From Prevotella sp. (GTDB taxonomy: Bacteria > Bacteroidota > Bacteroidia > Bacteroidales > Bacteroidaceae): a stretch of 64,000 nucleotides of DNA. Where the stretch lies: contig JAFUEP010000024.1 in the NCBI GenBank assembly GCA_017470345.1, positions 124,001-188,000 of the forward strand, written 5' to 3'. Below the pieces are notes generated by a model. It did not search any database and had not been told where the DNA came from. It saw only the letters and a program-made list of their open reading frames with translations. This document shows positions 4,785-58,375 of the stretch, one piece after another; position 1 is the first letter of the stretch; the number at the start of each line of letters is the position of its first letter. The position numbers and the translations under genes are program-made.

Positions 4785-6233
4785 ATGAATAAACCCATCA
4801 TGAACATATCAGATTTTGAGATCATGGCCCCCGTAGGGTCGCGCGAATCGCTCACGGCCGCCATCCAGGCCGGCGCCGACTCGATCTACTTCGGCGTTGA
4901 GCAGCTCAACATGCGCTCCCACTCGGCCAACCACTTCACCATCGACGACCTCAAGGAGATCGCCCAGACCTGCCGCGAGCACGGCATGAAGAGCTACCTG
5001 ACGGTCAACACCATCATCTACGACGAGGACCTGCCGCTCATGCGCCAGATCATCGACGCCGCCCGCGAGGCCCAGATCACCGCCATCATCGCCAGCGACG
5101 TGGCCGTCATGCAGTACTGTCTTTCAAGTCAGAAGTCAGAAGTGAGAAGTGAGAAGTCAGAAAGCAGAAGTGAGAAGTCATAAGTGAGAAGTGAGAAGTT
5201 TTATAACCACTGTCCCGATGAAGCCTCTGCCGACAAAGGTAATAAAACTTCTCACCTCTCACCTCTCAATTCTCACTTCTCACTTCCCACTTCTCACCTC
5301 TCACCTCTTACTTCTCACTTCACGAGCGTCCACCTCTCCACCCAGCTCAACATCTCGAACGTCGAGGCGCTGCGGTTCTATGCCCAGTTTGCCGACGTCG
5401 TCGTGCTGGCCCGCGAGCTAAAGATCGAGCAGGTCGAAGCCATCCACCGCGCCATCGTCGAGGAGCACATCTGCGGCCCCTCGGGCCAGCTGGTGCGCAT
5501 CGAGATGTTCTGCCACGGCGCCCTGTGCATGGCCGTCTCGGGCAAGTGCTACATGTCGCTCGACCAGGCCAACCGCTCGGCCAACCGCGGCGAGTGCATC
5601 CAGGTGTGCCGCCGCTCCTACACCGCCACGGACAACGAGACGGGCTATCAGCTCGAGATCGACAACAAATACATCATGAGCCCGAAGGACCTGAAGACCG
5701 TGCGCTTCATCGACCGGCTGATGCGGGCCGGCGTCAGCGTCTTCAAGATCGAGGGCCGCGCCCGCGGACCCGAATATGTCTATACCGTCGTCAAGTGCTA
5801 CAAGGAAGCCATCCAGGCCGTCATCGACGGCACGTTCACCGAGGAGCGCAAGGACGAGTGGGACCGCCGCCTCGCCACCGTCTTCAACCGCGGTTTCTGG
5901 GACGGCTACTATCAGGGCCAGCTGCTCGGCGAATGGAACAAGAACTACGGCTCGAACGCCACCGAGCGCAAGGTCTACGTCGGCCGCGCCACGAAGTATT
6001 ACTCGCGGCTCGGCGTCGGCGAGTTCCAGGTCGAAGCCACCACCTTCCGCCTGGGCGACCGTCTGCTCGTCACCGGGCCCACGACGGGCGTGATGTATCT
6101 CGACTGCACCGAGATCCACGACAACGACGGCCGCCCCGTCAGCGAGGCCCCTCAGGGCCAGCCCGTCGCCATCCCCGTCAGCGCCAAGGTCCGCCCCTCC
6201 GACAAGCTCTTCAAGCTGGTCACCGAACAATAA
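4785..6233 (+). pseudogene. U32 peptidase-family protein (tRNA/rRNA hydroxylation type), interrupted by a foldback repeat with a stop
   Basis: The N-terminal part (4785 to about 5120) and the C-terminal part (about 5326-6233) are one U32-family protein in the same reading frame. Key features are MAPVGSRESLTAAIQAGADS at the N-terminus and the conserved cysteine cluster CHGALCMAVSGKC followed by RGECIQVCRRSY, which binds an Fe-S cluster in this family (TrhP/RlhA/UbiU relatives). About 205 bp of heptad repeat lie between AVMQYC and VHLSTQLN; they keep the frame but introduce one TAA at 5181-5183. The two halves could be made as separate peptides (a GTG at 5184 restarts the frame), or the gene may be dead. 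The 3' part has no other damage, which suggests a recent insertion or a tolerated one. Confidence 0.8.
5121..5325. repeat. Heptad foldback element inside the U32 gene
   Basis: The left tract is built of 7-nt units (AGAAGTG, AGAAGTC, ATAAGTG). A unique centre of about 40 nt follows, then a right tract of the opposite sense (TTCTCAC, CTCTCAC). The innermost arms GTGAGAAGTTTTA (5191-5203) and TAAAACTTCTCAC (5243-5255) are perfectly complementary. The element sits in frame in the host gene. Confidence 0.85.
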
Positions 6234-6238
6234 GGAGT

Positions 6239-6258
6239 CCCACAAAATTTTCTGTGGG
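6239..6258 (+). terminator. Hairpin after the U32 gene
   Basis: CCCACA and TGTGGG enclose AAATTTTC, 6 nt after the stop codon, followed by TTAATTA. A short stem, plausible as a weak terminator. Confidence 0.5.
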
Positions 6259-6307
6259 TTAATTACAGACCCCACCCCCCTTATACCAACCGAAAAAAGA
6301 GCTTCAA

Positions 6308-6374
6308 ACTATTTTCAAGGCTTGAAAATAATATTCCGCGGCGTGGAAATATATTTTCAAGCCTTGAAAATAGT
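6308..6374. repeat. Inverted repeat in the gap before sufE
   Basis: Arms of 23 bp (6308-6330 and 6352-6374, core TTTTCAAGGCTTGAAAAT) are complementary, with each arm itself nearly palindromic. CCGCGGCG and CCGCGCCG flank the arms. The rest of 6234-6443 shows no gene. Confidence 0.75.
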
Positions 6375-6443
6375 ATTCCGCGCCGTGAAAAAAGATTCAG
6401 GCAGTCCTTCCGTCGAATTGGTTGATTAAAAAATTCGACGATT

Positions 6444-6477
6444 TTTGACGATTTGTCTCTAAAAATTTGTACTTTTG
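6444..6477 (+). promoter_or_regulatory. Promoter for sufE and possibly the fructan regulator
   Basis: TTTG (6444-6447) and TACTTTTG (6470-6477) with a 22-nt spacer match the Bacteroidetes consensus. The position rules out the ATG at 6467 as a start and supports the one at 6509. Confidence 0.7.
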
Positions 6478-6508
6478 CAGCATCATTGACAATAATACTT
6501 TAACCACA

Positions 6509-6934
6509 ATGACCATCAACGAACGACAAGACGAGATTATCGCCGAATTCCAGGACTTCGACGACTGGATGGACCGCTACCAGCTGCTCATCGACCTGGC
6601 CGGCGAACAGGAACCGCTCGACCCGAAGTATAAGACCGAACAGAACCTCATCGACGGCTGCCAGAGCCGCGTGTGGCTCCAGGCCGACCTGACCGCCGAG
6701 GGGCTCGTCCACTTCCAGGCCGAGAGCGACGCCCTCATCGTGAAGGGCATCGTCGCGCTGCTCATCCGCGTGCTCGACCTGCAGTCGCCGGAGGACATCC
6801 TCGCGGCCGACCTCTACTTCATCGACCGCATCGGGCTCACGGAGCACCTCTCCCCCACCCGCTCCAACGGCCTCGTGGCCATGGTCAAGCAGATGCGGAT
6901 GTATGCCCTGGCCTTCCAATCGAAAGCAAGCTGA
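6509..6934 (+). CDS. sufE: SufE family Fe-S cluster assembly sulfur acceptor
   Basis: A 141-residue protein. The start at 6509 (MTINERQDEII) is preferred over 6467 because the promoter -7 box covers 6470-6477. SufE accepts persulfide sulfur from the cysteine desulfurase SufS on one conserved cysteine. Here that residue is Cys51 in the motif IDGCQSRVWLQ, at the same position as in characterised SufE proteins. The domain otherwise has the expected length and the C-terminal segment IGLTEHLSPTRSNGL that is conserved in the family. It is not beside other suf genes. The regulator gene begins 25 bp downstream on the same strand and may be co-transcribed. Confidence 0.92.
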   Translation: MTINERQDEIIAEFQDFDDWMDRYQLLIDLAGEQEPLDPKYKTEQNLIDGCQSRVWLQADLTAEGLVHFQAESDALIVKGIVALLIRVLDLQSPEDILAADLYFIDRIGLTEHLSPTRSNGLVAMVKQMRMYALAFQSKAS

Positions 6935-6959
6935 CAACGATTCCCGATAAAAACAAAGC

Positions 6960-8645
6960 ATGAGGCGTACCTTATACATAATAATACTCTCCACGATCGT
7001 GCTGCTGACGGGATGCGCCCGCCGCGAGCCACGCTTCGTCATCGGCGTCAGCCAGTGCTCGCAGGACATCTGGCGCGACAAGCTGAACAGCGAACTGCGC
7101 ATGGGCGCCTACTCGCACGACGACATCGAGCTGCGGTTCGCCTCGGCCGACGACAGCGACGAGCTGCAGATCAGCCAGATAGAGCAGTTCGTCAGCGAGG
7201 GCATCGACCTGCTCATCGTGGCGCCCAACCAGGTGGCCACGGTCACGCCGGTCATCGACCGCGTCTTCGACAGCGGCATTCCCGTCATCGTCTTCGACCG
7301 CAAGACCAACACCGAGAAGTTCACCGCCTACATCGGCGCCGACAACCGCGAGATGGGCCGCATGATGGGCGAGTTCATCGCCGCGCAGCTTGGCGGCCGC
7401 GGCCGTGTCGTCGAGGTCATGGGCCTCAAAGGGTCGTCGCCGGCCATCGAGCGCCACGAGGGCTTCGCCGAGGCATTGGGCCGTCATCCCGGCCTGGAGC
7501 TCGTCGCCTCGCTGCAGGGCGACTGGACGGAGGAAAGCGGCTACGAGGCGATACAGAAGTATGAGGGTGAGCTCGGCAACATCGACTACGTCTTCGGTCA
7601 GAACGACCGCATGGCGATGGGTGCCCGACGCGCCATGCTGAAGGAAAAAGGAAAAGTGAAAAGTGAAGAATTTGCTGCCGCCACAGATTCTGCGCTTGAA
7701 ACCATGGCGGCAGCAAATTCTTCACTCTTCACTCTTCACTCTTCACTAAAATTCTGCGGCATCGACGCCCTGCCGGGCGAGGGCGGAGGCATCGAGCTGG
7801 TGCTCGACTCGCTGCTCATGGCCTCGTGCATCTATCCCACCCACGGCGACGAGGTGCTCCAGCTGGCCCTCGACATCCTCGAGGGGCGCCCCTATGCCAA
7901 GGACAACCGCCTGCAGACGGCCCTCGTCACGCCCGACAACGCCTCGGTCATCCAGATGCAGAGCGCCGAGACCCAACGCCAGTCGACCTACCTGGACCAA
8001 CTGCATGAGCAGTCGGACCAATACCTCAAGCGCCTCAACTCGCAGCGCATCATCACGCTGCTCGCCCTCGGCGTCATCGTCCTGCTGCTGCTCGTCATCC
8101 TGCTCTTCTACCTCTTCGAGCAGGGCAAGATCAGCCTGCGCCACCAGCGCGAGGTGAGCAACCTGTGGAACCTGGAGAACGAGCCGCAGACAGCCCTCAC
8201 CAAGGAAGGAGAGGGCGACGACACCCAAGGGCAGGAGCCGACCGACGTCGCCACCCCGTCCGGGGAAGGCCAGCCGACCGGACAGAAAGACCAGCCGACG
8301 GGCTCAGAGCCCCAGAGCGCAGGACTCTCCGACACCGCCTTCATCATCCGCTTCAAGGACGTCGTCGAGAAGCGCCTGGCCGAGAGCGAGCTCAGCGTCG
8401 AGGACCTCGCCGCCGACATGCACCTCAGCCGCGTGCAACTCTACCGCAAGGTGAAGTCCGTCACTGGCTCGTCGCCCGTCGAGCTACTCCGCACGGCCCG
8501 TCTGAACCGCGGCTACCAGATGCTGCTGACCACCGACAAGTCGGTCAGCGAGGTGGCCTACGCCGTCGGATTCACCGCCCCAAGCTACTTCACCAAGTGC
8601 TTCAAGGACGAATTCGGCAAGAGTCCCACCGATATGAAACAGTAA
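6960..8645 (+). CDS. Transmembrane one-component sugar sensor: periplasmic binding domain + TM + AraC DNA-binding domain
   Basis: A 561-residue protein. Residues 1-20 are a signal or lipobox-like segment (TIVLLTGC). Residues about 25-340 are a periplasmic-binding-protein type 1 sugar domain (IGADNREMGRMMGEFIAAQL, FGQNDRMAMGARRAM, KFCGIDALPG). A strong TM helix follows at about 363-385 (ALGVIVLLLLVILLFYLF), then a Pro/Gly/Gln-rich cytoplasmic linker and an AraC/XylS double-HTH at about 460-561 (LAADMHLSRVQLYRKVKSVT, VGFTAPSYFTKCFKDEFG). There is no histidine kinase or receiver domain, unlike the hybrid two-component regulators of Bacteroides fructan loci. It precedes the susC promoter, so it probably senses periplasmic fructose or oligofructose and activates the locus. 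Residues about 228-263 are encoded by a repeat insertion. Confidence 0.88.
   Translation: MRRTLYIIILSTIVLLTGCARREPRFVIGVSQCSQDIWRDKLNSELRMGAYSHDDIELRFASADDSDELQISQIEQFVSEGIDLLIVAPNQVATVTPVIDRVFDSGIPVIVFDRKTNTEKFTAYIGADNREMGRMMGEFIAAQLGGRGRVVEVMGLKGSSPAIERHEGFAEALGRHPGLELVASLQGDWTEESGYEAIQKYEGELGNIDYVFGQNDRMAMGARRAMLKEKGKVKSEEFAAATDSALETMAAANSSLFTLHSSLKFCGIDALPGEGGGIELVLDSLLMASCIYPTHGDEVLQLALDILEGRPYAKDNRLQTALVTPDNASVIQMQSAETQRQSTYLDQLHEQSDQYLKRLNSQRIITLLALGVIVLLLLVILLFYLFEQGKISLRHQREVSNLWNLENEPQTALTKEGEGDDTQGQEPTDVATPSGEGQPTGQKDQPTGSEPQSAGLSDTAFIIRFKDVVEKRLAESELSVEDLAADMHLSRVQLYRKVKSVTGSSPVELLRTARLNRGYQMLLTTDKSVSEVAYAVGFTAPSYFTKCFKDEFGKSPTDMKQ
7642..7749. repeat. Heptad foldback element inside the sensor gene
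   Basis: Units such as AAAGTGA on the left and TCTTCAC (three perfect copies) on the right flank a centre. Arms of 21 bp at 7663-7683 and 7705-7725 are perfectly complementary and include GCTGCCGCCA. The insertion keeps the frame and falls between RRAMLKEKG and KFCGID of the periplasmic domain. Confidence 0.85.
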
Positions 8646-8659
8646 TAAAACATTTGAGT

Positions 8660-8803
8660 CAAGGGGAGTCAAGGGGAGTAAAGGGGAAGTGAAGAAGAAG
8701 TGAAAGGGGAGTGAAAAGGACGTCACTCTATCCCTTAATGGTCGCGAAAAAACTGACGTCCCCTTCACTCCCTCCTCACTACTCCTTCACTCCCCTTCAC
8801 TCC
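8660..8803. repeat. Foldback repeat between the regulator and susC
   Basis: The left tract repeats a 10-nt unit (AAGGGGAGTC, AAGGGGAGTA). The right tract is its complement type (CCCTTCACTC). The inner arms GGACGTCA (8718-8725) and TGACGTCC (8754-8761) pair. It lies just after the regulator stop codon and may also act as a transcription terminator. Confidence 0.75.
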
Positions 8804-8835
8804 CAGCAAGCAAAGCCCCTCGTAAGTTGAATAAC

Positions 8836-8902
8836 AAAAATCGTTCGTCTTCGAGCAAAAATGTTACAACGAAACAATTTTTGCCCGCGACGAACGATTT
8901 TT
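8836..8902. promoter_or_regulatory. Palindromic operator candidate upstream of fructan susC
   Basis: AAAAATCGTTCGTC (8836-8849) and GACGAACGATTTTT (8889-8902) are perfectly complementary. An inner pair GCAAAAAT (8855-8862) and ATTTTTGC (8877-8884) is complementary as well. The outer half-site AAAAATCGTTC recurs in the palindrome upstream of the second fructan transcription unit (17174-17219), which makes it a good candidate binding site for the AraC-type sensor. Confidence 0.65.
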
Positions 8903-8927
8903 TTACTGCCAACGCCCCGATTTCCAC

Positions 8928-8935
8928 TACCTTTG
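8928..8935 (+). promoter_or_regulatory. -7 box of the fructan susC promoter
   Basis: TACCTTTG matches TAnnTTTG, 26 nt after the operator palindrome and 40 nt before the start codon. No good TTTG lies at -33, which is consistent with a promoter that depends on an activator. Confidence 0.65.
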
Positions 8936-8975
8936 CGGCAGATTTTTTAATTATCATTACTAACCGCAAAGATTT

Positions 8976-11900: not shown

Positions 11901-12089
11901 CAGCTGGGCTACAACATTCCCGAGCGTCTGCTCAAACCCATCAAGATGACCAGCGCCCGCGTCTATCTCTCGGCTCACAACCTGCTGACGCTGAAGTCCT
12001 CATCGCTCACCTGCTCTGACCCTGAGAACCCCCGCTGGATGTATCCTAACAGCACGTCAGTCTCGTTCGGCATTCAGACTTCGTTTTAA
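8976..12089 (+). CDS. susC: SusC-like TonB-dependent outer-membrane transporter (fructan locus)
   Basis: A 1037-residue protein with a signal peptide ending at MYAQ, a carboxypeptidase-regulatory-like domain (TEITGTVLDEFGEGVIGATV, residues about 24-100), then a plug starting at the TonB-box-like ELAEVVVTGYQ. The plug includes the SusC signature GTVRIRGGGSF and DPLFIIDGVPT, and a beta-barrel reaches the terminal FGIQTSF. Together with the SusD lipoprotein it should bind and import fructo-oligosaccharides across the outer membrane using TonB energy. Substrate assignment rests on the two GH32 enzymes and the fructokinase encoded downstream. The start at 8976 gives a proper signal peptide. Confidence 0.93.
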   Translation: MEKAKRIFLSLVLMFAATAMYAQTEITGTVLDEFGEGVIGATVKEKGTSNGSVTDFDGNFKLKVAPGTMLVITYIGYDAVEMPAATGMKVQLKENASELAEVVVTGYQTQRKADLTGSVAVVKTDELKTSSDTDPMRALQGKVPGMTITSNGSPVGAGTVRIRGGGSFNSSQDPLFIIDGVPTTTNLNTLNMNDIESMQVLKDAASASIYGSRAANGVIIITTRSGKKGDKVKVDFSANLTAQFYNSQSMMKLANTAEYATAMAQAAMNDGLDPVAYASNYGLNLNASAGTPIQAYDPATGAMRQFTVNGLYDGYMNSKHTMRFSDTDWLDEISRTGFSQNYDLSLSNATDRSSALFSFGYKKNNGILKYTDFESFSGRINTSYKVNKIVTVGENATITYSDQVDCQPLENALKMAPTLPVYEEDGTTFSGPVGGMSDRQNPLRELYHNRDNRLKMWRIFGNAYVNLQPVKGLTLRSNFGLDYWSEFIHSVTYTWHSDVVNNSTPSSNLGAKNSVKWTWSNTANYNFTLAADHNFIVLAGMELHRDVEERSNAYAQMYALENYDYMWPDAATGTQRAGGIREGYNLVSFFGKLDYNWKDLVLASFTIRRDGSSRFGENNRYGTFPAFTLGYRLSENLHQDWINDLKLRASWGETGNQAISNYARYGLYAATYGGGRNESTAYDLALQGSGIYPSGFRATQSQNNNLKWETTEQYNLGLDFTLFGSSVYGTVDAYIKNVKDMLINPAYLGSMGEGGASWLNGPSLRNWGMEFALGYRHTTEYGLRYNVNGNLDFFRQRVTYLPETTTGSYVHTAKENLVESKKPYGSIVGYVVDGLFQNREEVIASGQENARVGGLKYADLDGNGLINEQDQTWIFNPVPNFSWGLNVELAYKDFDFSMFWQGVAGQDVYNDQKFQTDFYSITDAGSNKGNRMLDAWTTANTGSDIPALTTNNVGNEGRASTYFVENGSYAKLRQVQLGYNIPERLLKPIKMTSARVYLSAHNLLTLKSSSLTCSDPENPRWMYPNSTSVSFGIQTSF

Positions 12090-12113
12090 TTGAAGATTGA
12101 AGATTGAAGATTT
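12090..12113 (+). repeat. Heptad tract between susC and susD
   Basis: ATTGAAG is repeated three times in the gap immediately after the susC stop codon. A single-arm tract of the same class as the foldback elements. Confidence 0.8.
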
Positions 12114-12140
12114 AATGTTAAACATCGAAAAGAAACAATT

Positions 12141-13895: not shown

Positions 13896-13896
13896 T

Positions 13897-13932
13897 GGGA
13901 GCCCCCTCCCAGGCCCTCCCCGAGGGGAGGGA
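13897..13932. repeat. GC-rich palindrome (CCCTCC/GGAGGG family) after susD
   Basis: CCCTCCC...CCCTCCCCGAGGGGAGGG folds into a hairpin in the 82-bp gap before the next gene. Related palindromes lie inside coding sequence at 14021 and 31101. Confidence 0.75.
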
Positions 13933-13977
13933 ACAAATAGACAAGTCAATAAGAAAACCCAAAACAGAAAAAGCAAG

Positions 13978-15504: not shown

Positions 15505-15507
15505 GCG

Positions 15508-17317: not shown

Positions 17318-19066
17318 ATGAAAAAACTATTGACACTGATTGCCATGATGGCCATGTGCATGGGTGCCGCCGCGCAGGAAATCCTGGGCGACAACCACAG
17401 CATGCTGCGACTGCAGCAGGGACAGAAGTATCTCCTGCTGCCCGTCCAGGAGAAGGAAGAGATTGCCAACATCTGCGTGCTGGACGACAGCAACGAGCTC
17501 ATGCAGCGCCTCAACGTGCGGCTGGCTGTCGACAAGGTTGACTACTACGTGCCGCTGCAGCTGAAGAAGGGCATGCGCCTGCTCGACATCACCTTCCACG
17601 GCGACCGCCGTCAGACGGGCCCGCTGAAGGACTTCGCCTGCTGGCGCGAGATGAAATACAGCGACACGTTCGACACGCAGAACCGCGAGCACTTCCGCCC
17701 GGCCTATCACCACACCCCGCTCTACGGATGGATGAACGACCCCAACGGCATGTTCTACAAGGACGGTGTCTGGCACCTTTATTATCAGTTTAACCCCTAC
17801 GGATCGCAGTGGGAGAACATGACGTGGGGACACTCCACCTCGCGCGACCTCATCCACTGGGAGGCACAGCCGCTGGCCATCGAGGCCGACTGGCTGGGCG
17901 CCATCTTCTCGGGCAGCGCCGTCGTCGACCATCGGGGCACGGCCGGCTTCGGCCCGGGGGCCGTCGTCGCCATGTACACCTCGGCCGGCTCAGCCCAGAC
18001 GCAGAGCATCGCCTACTCGAAGGACGGCGGACTGACGTTCACGAAGTATGCCGGCAACCCCGTCATCACCAAGAATGCACCCGACTTCCGCGACCCGAAG
18101 GTGTTCTGGCACGAGCCGACGCAGCGCTGGATCGTCGTGCTGGCCGTCGGCCAGGAGGTGCAGTTCTACAGCTCGAAGAACCTGAAGGAGTGGCAATACG
18201 AGAGCTCGTTCGGCCGCGAATATGGCAACCACGGCGGTGTCTGGGAATGCCCCGACCTCATCTATATTGAAGATTCAAGATTGAAAATTAAAGATTCAGC
18301 TGTGCGCAGCAACAATTCTCAATCCTCAATTCCCAATTCTCAATCAGGCAAGTGGGTGCTCCTGCTCAACATCAACCCGGGCGGACCCTTCGGCGGAAGC
18401 GCCACGCAATACTTCGTCGGACAGTTCGACGGCCACCGGTTCACGTGTGAGGACAGCCCGTCGGAGACCAAGTGGATGGACTACGGCAAGGACCACTATG
18501 CCACCGTCACCTTCCACGGAGCACCCGAAGGACGCATCGTCGCACTGCCGTGGATGTCGAACTGGCAGTATGCCAACCAGGTGCCCACCCGCCAGTTCCG
18601 CTCGGCCAACGGCCTGCCCCGCGACCTCGGACTGAAGACCGTCGGCGGCGAGACCATCCTGACCAGCACGCCCTCGCCCGAGATGGCGGCCCTGCGCGGC
18701 GCCAAGGTGAAGAAGCCCACGGAGACCTGCGAGATCGTGGTCGACGTGAAGGGCACGTGCACCATCGAGCTGAGCAACATGAAGGGCGAGCGCGTCGTGA
18801 TGACCTACGACGCTCAGGAGCAGGAGTTCGCCATGGACCGCACCAAAAGCGGCGACACGTCGTTCAGCGAGGCCTTCCCCTGCGTCACCACAGCTCCCAC
18901 GTATGGTGCCGTCCGCCAGCTGCGCCTCTTCATCGACCGCTGCAGCATCGAGGCCTTCAGTGCCGACGGCAGCATGGCCATGACCAACCTCGTCTTCCCC
19001 TCCGAGCCGTATAACACCATCAAGGTGAAGGGCGGCAAGGCCACGATTTATGAAATTAAGAATTAA
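17318..19066 (+). CDS. GH32 fructan hydrolase, periplasmic exo-type candidate
   Basis: A 582-residue protein with a cleavable signal peptide (MKKLLTLIAMMAMCMGAAAQ) and no lipobox, so probably periplasmic. Residues about 21-120 are an extra N-terminal beta domain, of the kind annotated DUF4980 on Bacteroides GH32 proteins. The GH32 propeller has nucleophile Asp141 (WMNDPNG), Asp259 (RDPKVFW) and acid/base Glu310 (WECPDL), and a C-terminal beta-sandwich with LFIDRCSIEAFSADGS. A repeat insertion encodes about 27 residues just after WECPDLIY, close to the active site, between two propeller strands. It likely releases fructose from imported oligosaccharides for the transporter encoded next. Confidence 0.92.
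   Translation: MKKLLTLIAMMAMCMGAAAQEILGDNHSMLRLQQGQKYLLLPVQEKEEIANICVLDDSNELMQRLNVRLAVDKVDYYVPLQLKKGMRLLDITFHGDRRQTGPLKDFACWREMKYSDTFDTQNREHFRPAYHHTPLYGWMNDPNGMFYKDGVWHLYYQFNPYGSQWENMTWGHSTSRDLIHWEAQPLAIEADWLGAIFSGSAVVDHRGTAGFGPGAVVAMYTSAGSAQTQSIAYSKDGGLTFTKYAGNPVITKNAPDFRDPKVFWHEPTQRWIVVLAVGQEVQFYSSKNLKEWQYESSFGREYGNHGGVWECPDLIYIEDSRLKIKDSAVRSNNSQSSIPNSQSGKWVLLLNINPGGPFGGSATQYFVGQFDGHRFTCEDSPSETKWMDYGKDHYATVTFHGAPEGRIVALPWMSNWQYANQVPTRQFRSANGLPRDLGLKTVGGETILTSTPSPEMAALRGAKVKKPTETCEIVVDVKGTCTIELSNMKGERVVMTYDAQEQEFAMDRTKSGDTSFSEAFPCVTTAPTYGAVRQLRLFIDRCSIEAFSADGSMAMTNLVFPSEPYNTIKVKGGKATIYEIKN
18264..18346. repeat. Heptad foldback element inside the second GH32 gene
   Basis: The left tract (TTGAAGATTCAAGATTGAAA) and the right tract (CAATTCTCAATCCTCAATT) are of opposite sense around CAGCTGTGCGCAGC. 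It keeps the frame and separates CPDLIY from GKWVLLLNINPGG, which are contiguous in the sister GH32 at 15508. Confidence 0.85.
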
Positions 19067-26104: not shown

Positions 26105-26353
26105 AAATGCCCGACAGCAGTCAACGCCCCACTCCGCTGTTGTCAACGCCCCCTTGCCCCCCTCTAATCTTAGAGGGGGAGCTGGATAGCGTGCATGCCG
26201 CCCGCCTCCGCTGGTGTCACGGCGCTCATCTACTCCTGCGGTAGTAAATAACTCCCCCTCTAAGATTAGAGGGGGGCAGGGGGGCGTTGACAACAGCCGA
26301 GGCGGGCGTTGACAACAGCGGAGGCGGGCGGCATTGACTGCTGTCGGGCATTT
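26105..26353. repeat. Nested palindromic element of about 250 bp
   Basis: The outer arms AAATGCCCGACAGCAGTCAA (26105-26124) and its exact complement (26334-26353) enclose inner 24-bp complementary arms (26158-26181 and 26252-26275), each itself a CCCCTCTAA/TTAGAGGGG palindrome. Imperfect arms between them share GTTGACAACAGC-type sequence. Confidence 0.85.
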
Positions 26354-26390: not shown

Positions 26391-26588
26391 TTTGTAAGAA
26401 AATATTCAAGTATTTTTGTCCATTTTCTTAAATACTTGATAATCAGCGCATTTACAAAACACGAAAAAAGAAGCGGTGCTTTTCGATGAGAGAAGCGGTG
26501 CTTTTTGAGTCGAAAAGCACCGCTTCTTGACCGTCAAAGCACCGTTTCTCCTTTAATCAAGACACAATTTGTAAAGAATATTCACACC
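26391..26588 (+). repeat. Dispersed 200-bp noncoding element, copy A
   Basis: Both ends carry a TTTGTAAAGRAWATTC-type sequence in the same orientation (TTTGTAAGAAAATATTC and TTTGTAAAGAATATTC). The middle holds AATCAGCGCATTTAC, then GAAGCGGTGCTTTTCGA twice and complementary TCGAAAAGCACCGCTTC. Copies B (35351-35551, inverted) and C (48999-49199) share ends, order and length. Confidence 0.85.
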
Positions 26589-35350: not shown

Positions 35351-35551
35351 AAGATTCAGAATATTCTTTACAACAACCACGTATGCTAACGGCAAAGCGG
35401 CGCTTCTCGAGCAGAGAAGTGCCGCTTTTTTCATCGAGAAGCGGTCCTTTTCTCATCGAGAAGCGCCGCTTCTTTTTGTAATAATGACAAATGCGCTGAT
35501 TTACAGATGCTTGTGGTTTCTTGACAAAACATTACGAATTTCCTTTACAAT
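35351..35551 (-). repeat. Dispersed 200-bp noncoding element, copy B (inverted)
   Basis: Read on the minus strand it starts ATTGTAAAGGAAATTC and ends TTGTAAAGAATATTCTGAAT, with AATCAGCGCATTTGTC and two AGAAGCGSYGCTTCTC-like palindromes between. It occupies the leader between the anti-sigma gene and the susC start. The rest of 35552-35735 shows no clear promoter box. Confidence 0.85.
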
Positions 35552-39351: not shown

Positions 39352-41094
39352 ATGATTACAAGATATATCCGAAAAATAGCAGCTGCTGTCTTCGTTTGTT
39401 GCGCCAGCTGCGCAACCTTCACCAGCTGCAACGACTTCCTCGACGAGACGCCCGACGGACGCATCAGCGTCGACAACACGGGCAAGATCCGCGCACTGCT
39501 CACCACGGCCTATCCCGACGTCACCTACGTCCGAATGACCGAGCTGGCCAGCGACAACGCCGACGACCTCAACGGCGACCTCAACGGCAACTACGACCGC
39601 TTCTCCGAGCAGTGCTTCCGATGGCAGGAGGTCACCGAGAGCGACAACGAGAGCCCCACGATGGTCTGGCAGGGCTACTACGCTGCCATCGCCGCCGCCA
39701 ACAACGCCCTCGTGGCCATCGACAACCTCGGAGGGGCCGCCGCCAGCGACACGCTCCGCGCCCTGCGCGCCGAGGCGCTGCTCTGCCGCGCCTTCTCGCA
39801 CTTCATGCTGACCAACCTGTTCTGCCTTAACTACTCGAAACAACACAGCCAGACCGACCCCGGCATACCCTACATCACCGAGCCGGAGACGACCCTCAAC
39901 CCGCAGTATGACCGCGGCACCGTCGCCCACGACTACGAGATGATCGAGCGCGACCTGCTCGAGGGACTACAGCTCATGAGCGACGCCATCTACACCGTGC
40001 CGTCCTATCACTTCAACACGCGGGCGGCCTACACCTTCGCCTCGCGCTTCTACCTCTTCTACCAGCAGCCCGAGAAGGTCATCCAGTACGCCACGCTCGC
40101 ACTCGACGACAACCCGCAGTCGCTCATGCGCGACTACGACGTCATGCAGTCGATGCCCACCGACGACATGCAGCCCCGCTCGCGGCAGTATGTCTCGTCG
40201 ACCGAGCCCGCCAACTTCCTCCTGCTGCCCGTCTACAGCACCGACCAGTACTACTTCCAGGGCTACTCCACCGGCGGACGATTCAACAACAACCACTACA
40301 TCGGACAGGCCGAGGAGTTCTTCGCCACGCCCTGGATGCCCTCCGTCGAGGCCGCCCAGCAGTCGCAGAACCTCTATCGCTTCTACTGGTTCTACAGCCA
40401 GACCTACGACAAGTTCCTCCTGCCCAAGCAGCCCGCCTACTTCCAGGAGACCAACTCGAACACCCACACGGGCTACTACCGCACCGTCGTCGTCGCACTG
40501 AAGGCTGAGGAGGCCCTGCTCAACCGCGCCGAGGCCTACGTCCTGACGGGTCAGAACCAGAAGGCGCTCGACGACATCAACGTATGGACACGCAACTTCG
40601 TCGTCGACTCCGTCACCTACGTCAGCGGCGGCCACTACAACTGGGACCCCTTCGAGTATGTCGTGGAGTACAGCACCGAGCAGGTGCCTAACCAGCTGAC
40701 CTTCGAGAGCATCCGCGAGTGGGCCTCCAAGTGGGGCTACTACCAGCCGCAGCAGCCCCTGCCGCGCAAGCGCCTCAACCCCGAGTTCGTCAGCCTCACC
40801 GAGGGCTCCACTCAGGAGGACCTGCTGCAGTGTCTGCTGCTCATCCGCCGACTGGAGTTCCTGCATGAGGGCATGCGATGGTTCGACATCAAGCGCTACG
40901 GCATGAAGATCTACCGCCGAGAGATCAACGCGGCCCTCAACATGCTGACACTGACCGACTCTATGTCCTACCGCGACCCGCGTCAGGCCCTCCAGATTCC
41001 CTTCGAGGTGCAGGCCGCCGGCATCACGCCCAACGCCCGCCCCGAGGCCGAGCCCGCGGCCTTCGCCACTTGGAAGATAACAGATAACAGATAA
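39352..41094 (+). CDS. SusD/RagB-like surface lipoprotein
   Basis: A 580-residue lipoprotein (CATFTSC followed by NDFLDETPDG). The SusD fold is supported by LRALRAEALLCRAFSHFMLT, VVALKAEEALLNRAEAYVLT and the C-terminal LLIRRLEFLHEGMRWFDIKR. It pairs with the preceding SusC. The last residues (KITDNR) and the stop codon are encoded by AGATAAC heptads, so the repeat has replaced the native C-terminus. Confidence 0.92.
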   Translation: MITRYIRKIAAAVFVCCASCATFTSCNDFLDETPDGRISVDNTGKIRALLTTAYPDVTYVRMTELASDNADDLNGDLNGNYDRFSEQCFRWQEVTESDNESPTMVWQGYYAAIAAANNALVAIDNLGGAAASDTLRALRAEALLCRAFSHFMLTNLFCLNYSKQHSQTDPGIPYITEPETTLNPQYDRGTVAHDYEMIERDLLEGLQLMSDAIYTVPSYHFNTRAAYTFASRFYLFYQQPEKVIQYATLALDDNPQSLMRDYDVMQSMPTDDMQPRSRQYVSSTEPANFLLLPVYSTDQYYFQGYSTGGRFNNNHYIGQAEEFFATPWMPSVEAAQQSQNLYRFYWFYSQTYDKFLLPKQPAYFQETNSNTHTGYYRTVVVALKAEEALLNRAEAYVLTGQNQKALDDINVWTRNFVVDSVTYVSGGHYNWDPFEYVVEYSTEQVPNQLTFESIREWASKWGYYQPQQPLPRKRLNPEFVSLTEGSTQEDLLQCLLLIRRLEFLHEGMRWFDIKRYGMKIYRREINAALNMLTLTDSMSYRDPRQALQIPFEVQAAGITPNARPEAEPAAFATWKITDNR

Positions 41095-41131
41095 CAGATA
41101 AGAGATAATAGATAATAGATAATAGATATTG
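41078..41131 (+). repeat. Heptad tract overlapping the SusD 3' end
   Basis: Units AGATAAC (three), AGATAAG, AGATAAT (three) run from inside the coding sequence to 3 nt before the next start. Confidence 0.85.
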
Positions 41132-43526: not shown

Positions 43527-43538
43527 GTGAAGTAAAAG

Positions 43539-43642
43539 ATGAAAGATGAAAAGTGAAAGATGAAAGATATGATTAGCTTTAGCACCGATTATTAAGCGGA
43601 AAGTCTAATCATATCTTTCATCTTTCACTTTTCATCTTTCAC
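43539..43642. repeat. Foldback element between convergent genes
   Basis: Arms of 38 bp (43539-43576 and 43605-43642) are complementary except for the outermost base, made of AAAGATG/AAAAGTG units, around a 28-nt centre. It may serve as a bidirectional terminator for the DUF4302 and DUF4294-like genes. Confidence 0.9.
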
Positions 43643-43651
43643 ATAAAGGAC

Positions 43652-48782: not shown

Positions 48783-48998
48783 CAATAAATCAGCGAGATG
48801 TGTTCACTTGCGGGCTAAGAATTAACAAAAAATAAACTTTCGGGGAGGGGTATTATTTCAATTCGTGATCATAATTATTCTGATTCATTTCAAAAGACAA
48901 GACATGGTTCGGTTCGGATTTCTTGTCTGCGACGCTACATGTAATCTTCAGGAATCAGTCATGAATTATTCATGTAATATCTCTTTCGGAAACAGCAA

Positions 48999-49199: not shown

Positions 49200-49274
49200 T
49201 CTGCCCGAGCCCGTCATAATTCCTAAATCCCAAGATTCGCTAGTCTACATTATCCATTCTTCAACCGCTCCGCG

Positions 49275-49380
49275 GTCTTACAAAAACAAAATAAAACAAA
49301 ATAAAACATGAAAAAAACAATTAGCCTGATATATCCTGTTTTATTTTGTTTTTTCTTGTTTTATTTTGTTTTTGTAAGAC
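49275..49380. repeat. A/T-rich foldback downstream of pnuT
   Basis: Arms of 24 bp around 49275-49298 and 49357-49380 (core ACAAAAACAAAATAAAAC) pair perfectly. They are made of an 11-nt ACAAAATAAAA unit present once more in each arm. It may end transcription of the thiamine operon. Confidence 0.85.
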
Positions 49381-49402
49381 GCAGGGCGTTACAGACTTCA
49401 CC

Positions 49403-49975
49403 TCAGGCCGTGACGGGTATCATGCGGAGCCACTTGCGGTAGCCGGCGAGGGCGACGACGGTGTAGAGGGCGTAGATGGCTGCCTTGAAGGGGATGCCCT
49501 TGTATATATATAATATGGTGCAGACGGCGTCGACGACGAACCAGAGGAGCCACTGCTCGGCGTACTTGTGGGCCAGTGCCCACAGGGCTACGATGCTGAG
49601 GGCGGTGGTGAAGGCGTCGGTGAGGGGTACGGTGGAGTTGGTCTGCGTGGCGAGGAAGAGCCAGATGACGCCCCACAGGAGCAGAAAGACGGCGGCGGTG
49701 GGCAGGACGAGGCGGAGGGGGAAGTGGCAGGGGGTGGGCGCAGGTGTGGACTGCTGTTTGGGCCTCCATTTCACATATCCATAGAGGCCGGCGAGGCAGT
49801 AGTAGACGGCGAGTCCGAAGTCGGCGTAGAGTCCGGCCTTATAGTAGAGCACCATGTCGACGGCGGGCATGACGATGGAGGCGAGCCAGAGCCAGATGCT
49901 GGCACGATATTCGAGGTAGAGGTAGATGAGGCCGAGGACGAAGCCGAGGATGTCGAGAAAACGTAGGGTGTCCAT
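49403..49975 (-). CDS. pnuT: PnuC-family transporter, probably thiamine (PnuT)
   Basis: A 190-residue membrane protein with about seven hydrophobic helices. The start at 49975 (MDTLRFLDILGFVLGLIYLY) is chosen; the longer frame runs through the repeat. PnuC-type features are YLEYRASIWLWLASIVMPAV, DMVLYYKAGLYADFGLAVYY and WLLWFVVDAVCTILYIYKG. Because the upstream TonB receptor is under a TPP riboswitch, thiamine rather than nicotinamide riboside is the likely substrate. The thiamine pyrophosphokinase gene that often follows in Bacteroidetes is absent. Confidence 0.85.
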   Translation of the reverse strand: MDTLRFLDILGFVLGLIYLYLEYRASIWLWLASIVMPAVDMVLYYKAGLYADFGLAVYYCLAGLYGYVKWRPKQQSTPAPTPCHFPLRLVLPTAAVFLLLWGVIWLFLATQTNSTVPLTDAFTTALSIVALWALAHKYAEQWLLWFVVDAVCTILYIYKGIPFKAAIYALYTVVALAGYRKWLRMIPVTA

Positions 49976-49978
49976 ATT

Positions 49979-50206
49979 TTGAAGGTTGATGGTAGATGGT
50001 AGAAGGTAGAAGGGTCGGCTTCGCCGAGGACGAAGGTTGAAGGTTGAAGGAGGAGGGTTGCTGAGGTTTAGGATTTTGGTTGAAGGTGAAGGTGGTTTCC
50101 ACAATCCTTATACTGCCTCGTTGGCAAAACCATTCCTTCAACCTTCGTCCTTCGTCCTCGGCGAAGCCGACCCTTCTACCTTCTTCCTTCTTCCTTCTTC
50201 CTTCGT
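49979..50206. repeat. Heptad foldback between the TonB receptor and pnuT
   Basis: Units GAAGGTT, GATGGTA and GAAGGTA on the left; CCTTCGT and CTTCTTC on the right. Arms of 32 bp at 50005-50036 and 50149-50180 are perfectly complementary and include a TCGGCTTCGCCGA hairpin. The right arm has one extra heptad relative to the left. The element fills the gap between two co-transcribed genes. Confidence 0.88.
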
Positions 50207-50207
50207 G

Positions 50208-52622: not shown

Positions 52623-52664
52623 TCTTATCTTTTAAATTAGATTAAACAAAATGGGGATTTTTTA

Positions 52665-52748
52665 CCGTTTCATCCCTTCGGCGGCATTATCCGCATCAGG
52701 TGCTGAGGGTATCATCTCAGCCCGCCACATCGACGGGCACCCCTTGAA
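52665..52748 (-). promoter_or_regulatory. TPP (THI-element) riboswitch
   Basis: On the minus strand the aptamer contains CTGAGATGATACCCTCAG, then ACCTGATGCGGATAATGCC and GAAGGGATGA, the conserved thi-box core. The 5' and 3' helices are GGGGTGCCCGTCG and its partner region. It precedes the TonB receptor start by 42 nt, so it likely shuts off translation or transcription when TPP is abundant. Confidence 0.95.
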
Positions 52749-52756
52749 TTCGGCTG

Positions 52757-52764
52757 CAAAGTTA
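52757..52764 (-). promoter_or_regulatory. -7 box of the thiamine operon
   Basis: TAACTTTG on the minus strand, just upstream of the riboswitch aptamer. Confidence 0.65.
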
Positions 52765-52844
52765 CGAAGAATAAATGAGAAACGAGAAAGAAATCGCAAC
52801 TAAGTAGCAATGAAGGGGAAAGAAAGTTTCGAAACGGCAGCAAA

Positions 52845-52970
52845 ACGGCAGCCTTCGGCTGGAAATTATTCAAAATTAAAACAAAATTTTTCATTTTGCA
52901 CACTCATGCTTGTGCCATTTTGTTTAATTTTGAATTCAATTTTGAATAATTTCCAGCCGAAGGCTGCCGT
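52845..52970. repeat. Long inverted repeat between two outer-membrane protein genes
   Basis: Arms of 33 bp (52845-52877 and 52938-52970) pair perfectly and include CAGCCTTCGGCTGG; further AAAACAAAAT/ATTTTGTTT pairing continues inward. It lies between the end of the 52996 gene and the thiamine promoter. Confidence 0.9.
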
Positions 52971-52995
52971 ATAGCCGTATACACAACAGAGCCTA

Positions 52996-55551: not shown

Positions 55552-55613
55552 GATGATGTTTAAAAGTCCTGATTCAGTTTTTTTGAGGTTGACGGCCCGC
55601 CCCCACTCCACAC

Positions 55614-55910
55614 CTAACTGTGCAGCAGGAAGTAGAAGGCGGCGGCGATGACGATGATGAGATAGCTGCAGCCCTTCCATATCTTGCCGAAGACATAGCA
55701 GGCCAGGAGCAGCGCCACGACGATGATGATGTCCTCAGTGTCGAAGCGGATGGGGCGATAGTCCATCATGCCGTCCATGCCGTCGAGCTCGTCCACACCG
55801 CGGCGGCCCGATGCGCCGTCGAGGTCGTCGTCGTAGTCCTGACCCCATGTGGCCATGGTGAGGAGCCATCCGCAGACAGCCATATAAACCCTGAAAAGCA
55901 ATTGTCTCAT
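55614..55910 (-). CDS. Small membrane protein upstream of the beta-barrel gene
   Basis: A 98-residue protein (MRQLLFRVYMAVCGWLLTMA) with an N-terminal hydrophobic signal or anchor, a short acidic middle (DYDDDLDGASGRRGVDELDG) and two closely spaced hydrophobic segments at the C-terminus (IIIVVALLLACYVFGKIW, YLIIVIAAAFYFLL). No family recognised. It starts at 55910, just downstream of a -7 box, and is 62 bp from the barrel gene, so co-transcription is likely. Confidence 0.7.
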   Translation of the reverse strand: MRQLLFRVYMAVCGWLLTMATWGQDYDDDLDGASGRRGVDELDGMDGMMDYRPIRFDTEDIIIVVALLLACYVFGKIWKGCSYLIIVIAAAFYFLLHS

Positions 55911-55947
55911 CGTTAACAGAATGTCGTATGTGTGGTTTTTTGCGGTG

Positions 55948-55955
55948 CAAAGGTA
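55948..55955 (-). promoter_or_regulatory. -7 box for the small membrane protein and barrel gene
   Basis: TACCTTTG on the minus strand, 37 nt before the start at 55910. It lies back to back with the divergent box at 55998. Confidence 0.6.
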
Positions 55956-55997
55956 TAAAATAAATATTAAAATAAGGTATATATTAAATTTATTTTG

Positions 55998-56005
55998 TAA
56001 TTTTG
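55998..56005 (+). promoter_or_regulatory. -7 box for the CoA-transferase gene
   Basis: TAATTTTG matches the consensus 35 nt before the ATG at 56041. Confidence 0.6.
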
Positions 56006-56040
56006 CAGCCGAAAATCCAAAACAACCTATAAAAAACATT

Positions 56041-57546
56041 ATGGCTTACACACGTATGACCGCTGCTGAAGCAGCAGCACTTATCAAGAATGGCGACCAG
56101 ATTGCCATGAGTGGATTCACGCCCGCCGGCGTGGCCAAGGCCACGACGAAGGAGCTGGCCAAGCTGGCTCAGAAGGAGCACGAGGCCGGCCGCGAGTTCA
56201 AGGTGAGCATCTTCACCGGAGCATCGACGGGTCAGTCGACCGACGGCGACCTGGCCAACGCTCAGGCTATCAAGTATCGTGCACCCTACACGACCAACCC
56301 CGACTTCCGCAAGCATGTCAACATGGGCGAGATCCCCTACAACGACCTGCACCTGAGCCACATGGCACAGGAGCTGCGCTACGGCTTCTACGGCGAGCTG
56401 GACTGGGCCATCATCGAGGTCTGCGACATTGAGGAGGTGGGCGACGAGATGCGCGTCTACCTGACCGCTGCCGGCGGCATCAGCCCCACGGCCGCCCGTC
56501 TGGCCAAGAAGGTCATCCTGGAGCTCAACGCCTTCCACAGCCCCAACGCCAAGTATATCCACGACGTCTACGAGCCGCTCGACCCGCCCTACCGCCGCCC
56601 CATACCCATCTTCAGCGTCGGCGACCGCATCGGCAAGCCCTACGTCTCGATACCCCGCGAGAAGGTGGTCGGCGTCGTCGAGTGCAACATCCCCGACGAG
56701 GCACGCGCCTTCAAGGACTCCGACCCCGTCACGGACAAGATAGGATTCCTCACCGCTGAGTTCCTCGTCTCCGAGCTCCACGCCGGACGCATCCCCAAGG
56801 AGTTCCTGCCCCTGCAGAGCGGCGTCGGCTCGACGGCCAACGCCATCCTCGGCGCCCTGGGCGAGGACAAGCACGTGCCCGACTTCAACATCTACACCGA
56901 GGTCATCCAGAACTCCGTCATCGAGATGATGCTCAACGGCCGCGTCAAGGACGCCTCAGCCTGTTCGCTGACCGTCTCGAACGAATGTCTGATGCAGGTC
57001 TACGATAACATCGGATACTTCAAGGATCACCTGACGCTGCGCCAGAGCGAGATCTCCAACCACCCGGCCGTCATACGCCGACTCGGCGTCATCGCCATCA
57101 ACACCGCCATCGAGGTCGACCTCTACGGCAACGTCAACTCCACACACATCAGCGGCACGAAGATGATGAACGGCATCGGCGGATCGGGCGACTTCGAGCG
57201 CAACGCCTACCTCTCCATCTTCACATGCCCCTCGACAGCCAAGGGCGGGCTCATCTCGTCGATCGTGCCCTTCGTCACCCACCAGGACTCCTCGGAGCAC
57301 GACGTCAACATCATCGTCACCGAGCAGGGCGTCGCCGACCTGCGCCACAAGAGCCCCATGCAGCGCGCCGAGGCCATCATCGAGAACTGCGCCCACCCCG
57401 ACTATCGTCCCCTGCTGCGCGAATACCTCCGTCTGGGTCAGGGCGGCCACACCCGCCACTGCCTCACCGCCGCCTTCGCCATGCACGACACGCTGGCCCG
57501 CAAGGGCGACATGCACCTGACGGACTTCTCAGAGTACGTGAAGTAA
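56041..57546 (+). CDS. Acetyl-CoA hydrolase/transferase family CoA-transferase (acetate/succinate type)
   Basis: A 501-residue protein. The start at 56041 (MAYTRMTAAEAAALIKNGDQ) follows the promoter; the longer frame has a nonconserved AT-rich extension. Family markers are GFTPAGVAKATTKELAKLAQ at the N-terminus, PLQSGVGSTANAILGALGED in the middle and the GIGGSGDFERNAYLSIF and VTEQGVADLRHKSP segments at the C-terminus. Such enzymes move CoA between acetate, succinate or propionate in Bacteroidales fermentation. A hydrolase activity is the alternative. It is monocistronic with its own terminator. Confidence 0.92.
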   Translation: MAYTRMTAAEAAALIKNGDQIAMSGFTPAGVAKATTKELAKLAQKEHEAGREFKVSIFTGASTGQSTDGDLANAQAIKYRAPYTTNPDFRKHVNMGEIPYNDLHLSHMAQELRYGFYGELDWAIIEVCDIEEVGDEMRVYLTAAGGISPTAARLAKKVILELNAFHSPNAKYIHDVYEPLDPPYRRPIPIFSVGDRIGKPYVSIPREKVVGVVECNIPDEARAFKDSDPVTDKIGFLTAEFLVSELHAGRIPKEFLPLQSGVGSTANAILGALGEDKHVPDFNIYTEVIQNSVIEMMLNGRVKDASACSLTVSNECLMQVYDNIGYFKDHLTLRQSEISNHPAVIRRLGVIAINTAIEVDLYGNVNSTHISGTKMMNGIGGSGDFERNAYLSIFTCPSTAKGGLISSIVPFVTHQDSSEHDVNIIVTEQGVADLRHKSPMQRAEAIIENCAHPDYRPLLREYLRLGQGGHTRHCLTAAFAMHDTLARKGDMHLTDFSEYVK

Positions 57547-57574
57547 TCATCGCACACCCTCTACATTCATTTAT

Positions 57575-57609
57575 GCCCATATCTCCCGCTGCGGAGGTAT
57601 GGGCTTTTT
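57575..57609 (+). terminator. Terminator of the CoA-transferase gene
   Basis: GCCCATATCTCC and GGAGGTATGGGC form a 12-bp stem (one G-T wobble) around a 6-nt loop, followed by TTTTTC. Confidence 0.88.
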
Positions 57610-57649
57610 CTTTCCACTCACAATTCACACTGAGTCATATTTATTGTCA

Positions 57650-58375
57650 ACCACGAGTTTATTTAACCACGAATTACACTAATTTCACGAATTAATTCTT
57701 AACCACGAATTACACTAATTCCACGAATTTTTTTTAAAACAACGAATTAAGACGAATTACACGAATTGTCACGAATTAAAACTAATTTCACGAATTCTTT
57801 TTAAAAACAACGAATTAAGACGAATTGCACGAATTAAAACGAATTTTATTATATTTCACGAATTATTTCTATTTCACGAATTATTTCTATTTCACGAATT
57901 TTTTTTTATTTCACGAATTATTTTTTCATTTCACGAATTGGCTGCGCACTGGCAATCGCTACATGTAGCAGACAATTCGTGACAATTCGTGACAATTCGT
58001 ACAATTCGTGTAATTAGAATTAATTCGTGTCATTAATATTAATTCGTGTAATTAGTTTTAATTCGTGTAATTAGTTCAAATTCGTGTAATTAGTTCAAAT
58101 TCGCGTAATTAGTTTTAATTCGTGTAATTAGTTTTAATTCGTGTAATTAGCTCAAATTTGTGTAATTAGTTCAAATTCGTGTCAATTCGTGTAATTCGTC
58201 TTAATTCGTTGTTTTTAAAAAGAATTCGTGAAATTAGTTTTAATTCGTGACAATTCGTGTAATTCGTCTTAATTCGTTGTTTTAAAAAAAATTCGTGGAA
58301 TTAGTGTAATTCGTGGTTAAGAAATAATTCATGTTTAAGAAATAATTCGCAGTTAAGAAACAATTCGTGGTGAAG
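57650..58375. repeat. Giant foldback element with 129-bp arms
   Basis: Arms at 57698-57826 and 58193-58321 read as perfectly complementary over 129 bp. Both arms and the 366-bp centre are built of ACGAATTA/CACGAATT units with ACTAATTTC spacers, in opposite sense on the two sides of an approximate midpoint near 57945-57975 (GGCTGCGCACTGGCAATCGC). Related units extend outward in both directions. No coding potential. Confidence 0.9.

Follow-up and report, generated by a model that had tools for sequence, protein, structure and literature searches.

Described here are foldback sequences, built of seven-nucleotide units (heptads), that recur throughout a 64,000-nucleotide stretch of Prevotella DNA, hereafter the window (assembly GCA_017470345.1, contig JAFUEP010000024.1, positions 124,001 to 188,000). 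The window forms part of contig C15 of genome G000, which comprises 2.67 Mb in 68 contigs and is 61.6% complete. The heptad foldbacks are probably miniature mobile elements, namely gene-less derivatives of an element in which inverted arms, mostly of four heptads each, flank a gene for 23S_rRNA_IVP (PF05635), a protein also referred to as S23p or four helix bundle protein and here called IVP. The same arms occur on gene-bearing and gene-less forms, which therefore have the look of a parent and its miniature derivatives, and the linkage of gene and arms in the sequence points to IVP as the putative mobiliser. This explanation covers element families A, B, and D and the type found at locus L051, whereas the other foldbacks of the window and the unpaired heptad tracts are less well explained. 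The relatives' sequences match rumen Prevotella metagenome-assembled genomes (MAGs), and most of the genomes compared are MAGs.

The foldbacks are discrete elements with common ends. A family-A element is 93-117 bp long. Each arm runs from four AGTGAAG-like heptads through two bases to the core TTTGCTNCCGC, and the two arms mirror each other around a short centre. Across 37 copies, agreement with the periodic consensus is 0.92-1.0 up to a point exactly 30 nt from the core and 0.32-0.43 beyond it. The heptad-wise means for 244 family-A arms, given with the outermost first, are 0.30, 0.29, 0.32, 0.36, 0.89, 0.90, 0.90, and 0.92, and the end is also seen in a set of 232 arms. Family B (core AGTNWHATTA) and family D (core RATATGATTA) display the same cut after four heptads, with changes from 0.44 to 0.91 in 10 arms and from 0.42 to 0.75 in 12 arms, respectively, and single arms from another three families are consistent with it. 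Note that the arms were picked by the periodicity of their inner 28 nt, a choice that leaves the fifth heptad free, and thus the cut is not a product of the selection. The hairpins are very stable (z-scores of -7.5 to -16.9), and half elements do not fold alone (z-scores of -0.5 and -1.05). Both half elements and tandem arrays with a spacing of 46-48 nt occur. The 61 unpaired arms listed include only some true halves, since many are full elements whose other arm was missed by the pattern. Among 116 family-A elements there was no clear excess of a target-site duplication at offsets of -4 to 4, and inverted flanks were in weak excess (23 versus 14.3 for k=2 and 4 versus 0.8 for k=5). That the unit varies by locus while the architecture stays constant, as proposed in a sequence-only reading of the window, is thus supported. 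Also supported is its view that no single known transposon is involved. Its preference for a repeat-generating process over the copying of an element is not supported: in many genomes the family-A copies have the core, the ends, and the arm length in common.

The gene-bearing form, the putative parent, is represented among the unpaired arms. At L312:2512-2981 in G000, two family-A arms (23/24 complementary) face each other 0.4 kb apart around a single IVP open reading frame (ORF; PF05635, 85 bits). The first arm reads AGGTAAG AGTGAAT AGTGAAA AGTGAAA AA TTTGCTTCCGC and the second AGGGAAT AGTGAAA AGTGAAA AGTGAAA AA TTTGCTACCGC, each being four heptads and a core. The IVP frame enters the arm as KVKSEKFATA, which is the frame used by the translated insertions described below. 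A second such locus, with family-A arms (23/24) around an IVP gene, lies at L386:5330-5801 in genome G078, and the second IVP gene of G000 (L051:9621-10106) is bracketed by inverted ATTGAAT-type arms (22/24). Inverted heptad arms hence flank all three distinct IVP genes in the fetched Prevotella sequence (2.85 Mb with overlaps). The neighbours at L312 are protein genes, and the locus is not within a 23S rRNA gene.

Outside Prevotella, IVP matched 25 plasmid records, 12 of which were examined: six from Nostoc and one each from Dolichospermum, Aulosira, Euhalothece, Bernardetia, Treponema, and Monoglobus, thereby spanning Cyanobacteria, Bacteroidota, Spirochaetota, and Bacillota. In all 12 loci the best inverted 24-mer pair beats all five shuffles (19-24 versus 16-19 matches). 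Heptad tracts lie on both sides of the gene in nine loci, on one side in two (Bernardetia and Monoglobus), and on neither side in one. For the background, taken from 90 kb in two stretches of two of these plasmids, the corresponding figures are 0/86 ORFs with tracts on both sides and 0/50 sampled ORFs with inverted arms of at least 21/24. The tracts of Nostoc C052, N6, and ATCC 53789 c and of Aulosira contain about five to six units by a mechanical count that includes partial units. Here too the annotated neighbours are protein genes rather than a 23S rRNA gene. The cyanobacterial heptanucleotide repeats mentioned in the sequence-only reading proved a good lead, because heptad arms flank IVP genes in cyanobacteria as well.

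The recurrence of heptad units noted in the window is confirmed, and the excess of period 7 is pronounced. In 462,200 bases of G000 there are 53 period-7 tandem tracts (threshold 13/14 matches) and none in one shuffle; the harmonics at periods 14 and 21 account for 37 and 33 tracts, and other periods for fewer (12 each for 22 and 24, and 11 for 8). The window alone contains 11 period-7 clusters (17/18 matches) versus a mean of 0 over five shuffles. An inverted partner is present for 27 of the 53 tracts, and perfect inverted arms of at least 16 nt form 51 clusters versus none in one shuffle. Densities per 100 kb in the first samples were 11.5 for G000, 24.0 for G022, 11.6 for G011 and G014 together, 6.9 for G034, 2.0 for G032, and 0 for G023, with 1.1 for nine other genomes of the genus and 1.6 for eleven stretches of other families. 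These first figures run high, because later stretches gave 5.8 for G000 (380 kb), 4.3 for G034, and 9.2 for G022. The unit form ART plus four bases fits 46 of the 53 tracts and 19 of 24 unit types, with letter-shuffled units fitting in 14.5 of 24 (maximum 20). The stronger signal is ART with A at position six, which is found in 15 of 24 types versus 5.4 when shuffled (maximum 12).

Of the 100 genomes searched, 7 contain the exact family-A core pattern, and these belong to a single genus; G000 has 24 copies and G034 has 17. A scan of GTDB yielded at least 110 stretches, and of these 110 periodic arms were found twice in 82, once in 19, and not at all in 9. Six stray matches without heptads belong to Oscillospiraceae, Desulfonatronum, Chloroflexi, Paenibacillus, Sphingobium, and Gracilibacteraceae; the other matches listed come from assemblies of Prevotella, Prevotellaceae, Bacteroidaceae, or Bacteroidales, one uncultured-bacterium MAG, the complete genome of Prevotella communis E15-14, and Fibrella aquatilis and F. 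rubiginis. In Fibrella the copies are built of other units, and the arms matched 30/30 in four of them. One family-A copy of G034, when used as a query against phages and plasmids, gave no match, and one viral contig carries a single family-A copy outside any open frame. Two family-A copies with opposite centres lie 0.5 kb apart at L143:1471-1574 and 1987-2090 (G082:C2).

The in-frame location of copies inside genes was missed in the sequence-only reading. It was analysed with a set of 116 family-A copies, defined by a core with no more than two changes per arm and at least 14 period-7 matches in both arms; copies less than 70 nt from a locus end were dropped, and the set is biased by having been fetched around matches. 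Copies were taken as coding when the open frame extended 60 codons or more to each side, which applies to 45 of the 116. The length is 2 mod 3 in 45/45 coding copies and in 27/71 others (Fisher 1.9e-13), the latter being spread 27/24/20 over the three length classes. The core lies in one phase in 44 of the 45; for the remaining copy (L044:6688) the score refers to the antisense strand, and the coding strand gives the same phase as in the others. Stop codons in that phase occur in 0/44 upstream arms, 33/44 downstream arms, and 120/142 other arms. The absence of upstream stops partly follows from the requirement for an open frame, but the length bias does not.

The hosts of the coding copies, as assigned by family models, are varied. 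Family A resides in genes for an RNB-domain (RNase R-like) protein, an NAD-dependent epimerase, GH88, an M24 peptidase, a radical-SAM protein, a semialdehyde-dehydrogenase-fold protein, ArgS, QueG, CTP synthase, an o-succinylbenzoate-synthase-like protein, CbiE/CbiT, and a serine dehydratase, and family B in those for TopA, GH31, and an AAA protein, the last with two copies. In comparison with relatives, the protein can be aligned in frame on both sides of the element at nine sites, eight of them without a stop, and the element sits between conserved blocks. The ArgS of G034 that carries a full element is the only ArgS match in that genome apart from a stray copy of the element. In the ArgS of G022 the native loop is replaced by ANSSLFTLHSS, and six other genomes have neither. 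The epimerase of G022 contains half a family-A element, and the RNB gene of G033 an A-type insert with other units. Relatives without the element at element sites were thus found.

Remodelling acts on top of the spread of elements and includes inversion, core loss, and co-variation of arms. An insertion in PyrG is common to G000 and RUG12472, which are 97.8% identical over 3.1 kb there, and its core and centre match better when inverted (39/44) than directly (33/44). At a second site common to both, the element of RUG12472 has a core, and G000 has a palindrome without one. The two arms of a copy co-vary (26.6/30 versus 23.9; 0 of 2000 shuffles). A 562-bp indel with a short coding-looking stretch separates RUG12472 from G000 at L250:5276-5837 and L058:19366.

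The features of the window are collected in Table 1.

Table 1. Foldbacks and heptad tracts of the window, with arm length and complementarity of the inverted repeat
Position	Strand	Feature	Inverted repeat	Remarks
5126..5321		Family-B type foldback	5126-5320; 89 nt, 81%	AGTGAGA-like heptads; arms of more than four units; inside a U32/TrhP-like gene
7641..7747		Family-A element	7644-7744; 47 nt, 83%	107 bp; in frame in periplasmic-binding/AraC regulator gene 6960-8645; peptide KEKGKVKSEEFAAATDSALETMAAANSSLFTLHSS
8656..8806		Foldback, 10/11-nt units		Downstream of AraC-type gene
12088..12115	+	Heptad tract ATTGAAG		At stop codon
18264..18346		ATTGAAG-type heptad foldback		In frame in GH32 gene 17318-19066; opposed heptads around GCTGTGCGCAGC
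41074..41130	+	Heptad tract AGATAAC/AGATAAT		At gene junction; no inverted partner
43536..43643		Family-D element	43540-43641; 37 nt, 100%	Heptads AGTGAAA/GATGAAA, then GATATGATTAG; between convergent ORFs
49275..49380		10-nt unit foldback		Unit AAAACAAAAT
49981..50206		Large heptad foldback	49981-50204; 71 nt, 89%	Units GAAGGTA/GAAGGAA
57650..58375		Long ACGAATT-type foldback	57686-58333; 179 nt, 93%	Matched in part at 10 further places of the G000 sample

All eight foldbacks named in the sequence-only reading are real inverted repeats; three of them (8656-8806, 49275-49380, and 57686-58333), there taken as kin of the heptad type, use 10-nt, 11-nt, or mixed units and are separate families. 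The U32/TrhP-like gene copy is open in frame except for one TAA at 5181-5183. Of the 26 genomes that align at both flanks of this site, 25 have a short loop, with 189 nt less, and G023 has another in-frame insert. At the GH32 site, G000 is longer than G023 and G014 by 75 nt each, G011 by 72 nt, G032 by 54 nt, and G034 by 42 nt, and in G034 and G032 the loop contains 8-nt tandem repeats. Between the genes that flank the tract at the stop codon, G034 carries half a family-A element. A search of the sample at E 1e-4 gave no second match for the large heptad foldback. The foldback downstream of the AraC-type gene has three more copies (at least 70% covered) in 570 kb of G000; that with the 10-nt unit has such copies at three distinct places in G034 (four loci, two overlapping) and none covering at least 70% in the G000 sample. 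Further palindrome families with other unit lengths lie at 26105-26353, 6308-6395, 52840-52975, 26468-26528, and 35395-35471, most with copies elsewhere in the sample. The window also contains a tRNA at 4688-4758 (+) and a thiamine pyrophosphate (TPP) riboswitch at 52656-52754 (-).

Several known systems resemble these elements in part. With the intervening sequences (IVSs) of 23S rRNA genes, the gene-bearing form has in common that it is a small selfish element with inverted ends and an IVP gene, the gene lying between inverted terminal arms in 3/3 Prevotella and 12/12 plasmid cases. The Coxiella IVS carries an S23p ORF, and its terminal repeats form a 28-bp stem (PMC4990558), that is, 4 x 7, like the four heptads here. 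The elements of this report differ from IVSs, whose ends were compared by description, in lying outside rRNA genes, in their heptad arms, and in being mostly gene-less. The Rickettsia palindromic elements (RPEs) and Wolbachia protein-coding palindromic repeats, at 105-146 bp and in several families, are located in frame in conserved genes (PMC2229807, PMC10969869). Likened by description, the elements here are palindromes of similar size, roughly 100-150 bp, and likewise in frame in genes, but they belong to Bacteroidota rather than to Rickettsia and its kin and have arms of four heptads.

The heptameric repeats of Xanthomonas and Nostoc and the TAACTGA repeats share the 7-nt unit (PMC4692102, PMC4679880). 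Those of Xanthomonas comprise mostly four units and form inverted pairs in 70 and 75 cases (PMC4692102). The passages cited link the heptamers to G-quadruplexes or regulation and not to IVP or mobility, and the IVP terms do not occur in PMC4679880 or PMC4692102. Repetitive extragenic palindromic (REP) sequences, with their paired forms (REPINs) and REP-associated tyrosine transposases (RAYTs), also have an inverted pair as the mobile unit, compensatory changes, and singlets (PMC3116915). Each REP, however, is a small hairpin, whereas a half element here does not fold alone, some of the present copies are intragenic, and no linked RAYT was seen at the loci examined. Bacterial miniature inverted-repeat transposable elements (MITEs), such as BrickBuilt of Porphyromonas, are similarly small and gene-less with inverted ends (PMC4596501). 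The family-A arms around IVP at L312 and L386 provide what a MITE is recognised by, a gene-carrying element that shares its ends with the gene-less copies, with IVP as the putative mobilising enzyme; the differences are the lack of a target-site duplication here and the intergenic location and 23-nt units of BrickBuilt. The titles and abstract openings listed in the literature searches contain no description of the heptad elements or of their link to IVP, and earlier work in subscription journals is possible.

Another enzyme, such as a RAYT-like HUH protein, might mobilise the arms with IVP as a passenger or regulator; this we judge unlikely. A RAYT-like family (alignment A1) has at least three matches in 7/7 family-A genomes versus 10/53 others of the genus (hypergeometric 5e-5, from segment counts and confounded by kinship), and NF047646 matches 6/7 family-A genomes and 2/5 others, one over the cut-off. 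These matches are segments, the three of G000 corresponding to two genes and those of the other six family-A genomes to at least three genes each. The family is also present, however, in 27/53 genomes that lack the exact core pattern, and a heptad tract lies within 1 kb of 9/36 RAYT-like loci, a figure obtained with a loose threshold and no control. Though it co-occurs with family A, it was not linked to heptads in the loci examined, G000 being 61.6% complete. RAYT was accordingly set aside as the mobiliser and kept as a rival: PF01797 occurs in 40/60 genomes, among them 4/5 of the family-A genomes included, and the RAYT of G034 is absent from 5/7 family-A genomes at E 1e-5 (27 bits for the G000 match). 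The A1 proteins (L304-L306 and L330-L366) are diverse, with the motif MPDHLH, frames of ~330-520 residues, and several paralogues in some genomes; four longer ones gave no match in Pfam. A methyltransferase-like ORF with a weak match to BREX PglX, at L300:1989-5588 (G000:C35), encloses in frame a RAYT-like domain (55 bits, cut-off 80), and this domain is flanked by GGAGGCGACGTGTCYCACGTCGC palindromes of another family. A AAGCGGTGCTTTT-type foldback lies 43 bp from a RAYT-like gene at L347:5160-5244 (G000:C62), and others of that type are found at window positions 26468, 35395, and 49121.

The remaining alternatives dispense with mobility, translation, or the elements themselves. A local process of 7-nt slippage and template switching could generate foldbacks anew. 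It fits the strong bias to period 7, the co-varying arms, the core loss and inversion, and the proposal, cited in PMC4679880, that 7 nt reflects a polymerase contact, but it is very improbable given that the same cores with exactly four heptads occur at unrelated sites of many species and that the arms flank a gene too. Still less probable is that selection maintains the hairpins as functional RNA structures: they are very stable, and some lie between convergent ORFs, but 45/116 copies reside in genes of no common function, and Rfam gave only tRNA and the TPP riboswitch (window, L106, and L058). Equally slight is the prospect that copies in genes are bypassed or cut out and hence neutral. Bypassed palindromes are known in yeast mitochondria (PMC6649704), RNase III is the enzyme that excises IVS RNA (PMC4990558), and the U32 copy retains a stop, but a length of 2 mod 3 in 45/45 copies and the loss of stops are needed only if the element is translated. 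Least probable of all is an artefact of assembly; most genomes are MAGs, and G000 is incomplete, but the elements recur in many independent MAGs, the complete P. communis genome, Fibrella isolates, and complete plasmids.

Several observations weigh against derivation of the foldbacks from an IVP-bearing mobile element. No transposition event was seen in the sequences compared, and to our knowledge no activity of IVP has been described. The further 380 kb of G000, 280 kb of G034, and 120 kb of G022 held no IVP gene; from these 780 kb the gene-bearing forms are rare. The sample of IVP genes is small, plasmid-borne outside Prevotella, and inclusive of close kin (Nostoc L417 and L418 have the same arms). 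The arms of Nostoc UHCC 0870 are inverted at 24/24 but lack heptads, those of Treponema barely exceed shuffles (19 versus 18), and the number of heptads near IVP is not always four (16 in Bernardetia, 14 on one side in Euhalothece, and 7-8 in Treponema). Of the 53 period-7 tracts in G000, 26, or half, lack an inverted partner (18/21, within 600 bp). At least two pairs among the coding copies (L074/L282 and L215/L285, of 45 copies in all) each represent a single insertion seen in two assemblies, the U32 copy keeps its in-frame stop, and arm co-variation within the GTA sub-type alone is not significant (428 of 2000). PMC4990558 suggests, in addition, that S23p is not made in Coxiella; it also relates that the IVS was earlier suggested to be a mobile element with its ORF serving mobility.

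For a miniature element derived from an IVP-bearing parent, the following scheme may be envisaged. IVP would act in trans on the folded arms, perhaps with one subunit of a ring per heptad, and both gene-bearing and gene-less forms would spread by it without a target-site duplication. Selection would then keep intergenic copies or those entering a protein loop in an open frame, a mode of entry that would parallel the replacement of small 23S rRNA loops by IVSs, whose stem-loops have replaced tetraloops (PMC4990558). Slippage and intrastrand correction may yield a unit specific to each family and a unit number near four. The correspondence of one heptad per subunit, which is our own idea, would fix the number of units. 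The S23p of X. campestris is a homopentamer (PMC4990558), and the single PDB entry matching IVP (2rld) contains five chains; four heptads and the start of a fifth in Prevotella might thus be set beside the pentamer of Xanthomonas.

A broader reading, which is plausible but put forward tentatively, is that most heptanucleotide repeats of bacteria, among them Prevotella, Fibrella, Nostoc, Treponema, and Xanthomonas, represent arms of a single class of mobile DNA with IVP as its sole gene. A ring of IVP would read one heptad per subunit and move the hairpin by a new type of transposition mechanism, and rRNA IVSs, foldbacks without a gene, and translated protein loops would represent three fates of one element. 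Apart from this broader reading, the in-frame copies indicate that in rumen bacteria selfish DNA is translated inside enzymes such as ArgS and CTP synthase, and that its remnants replace native loops. The link between heptads and IVP would join three puzzles, namely why 7-nt repeats abound in some bacteria, what role the IVP/S23 protein plays, and how rRNA IVSs spread, all of which become testable through it.

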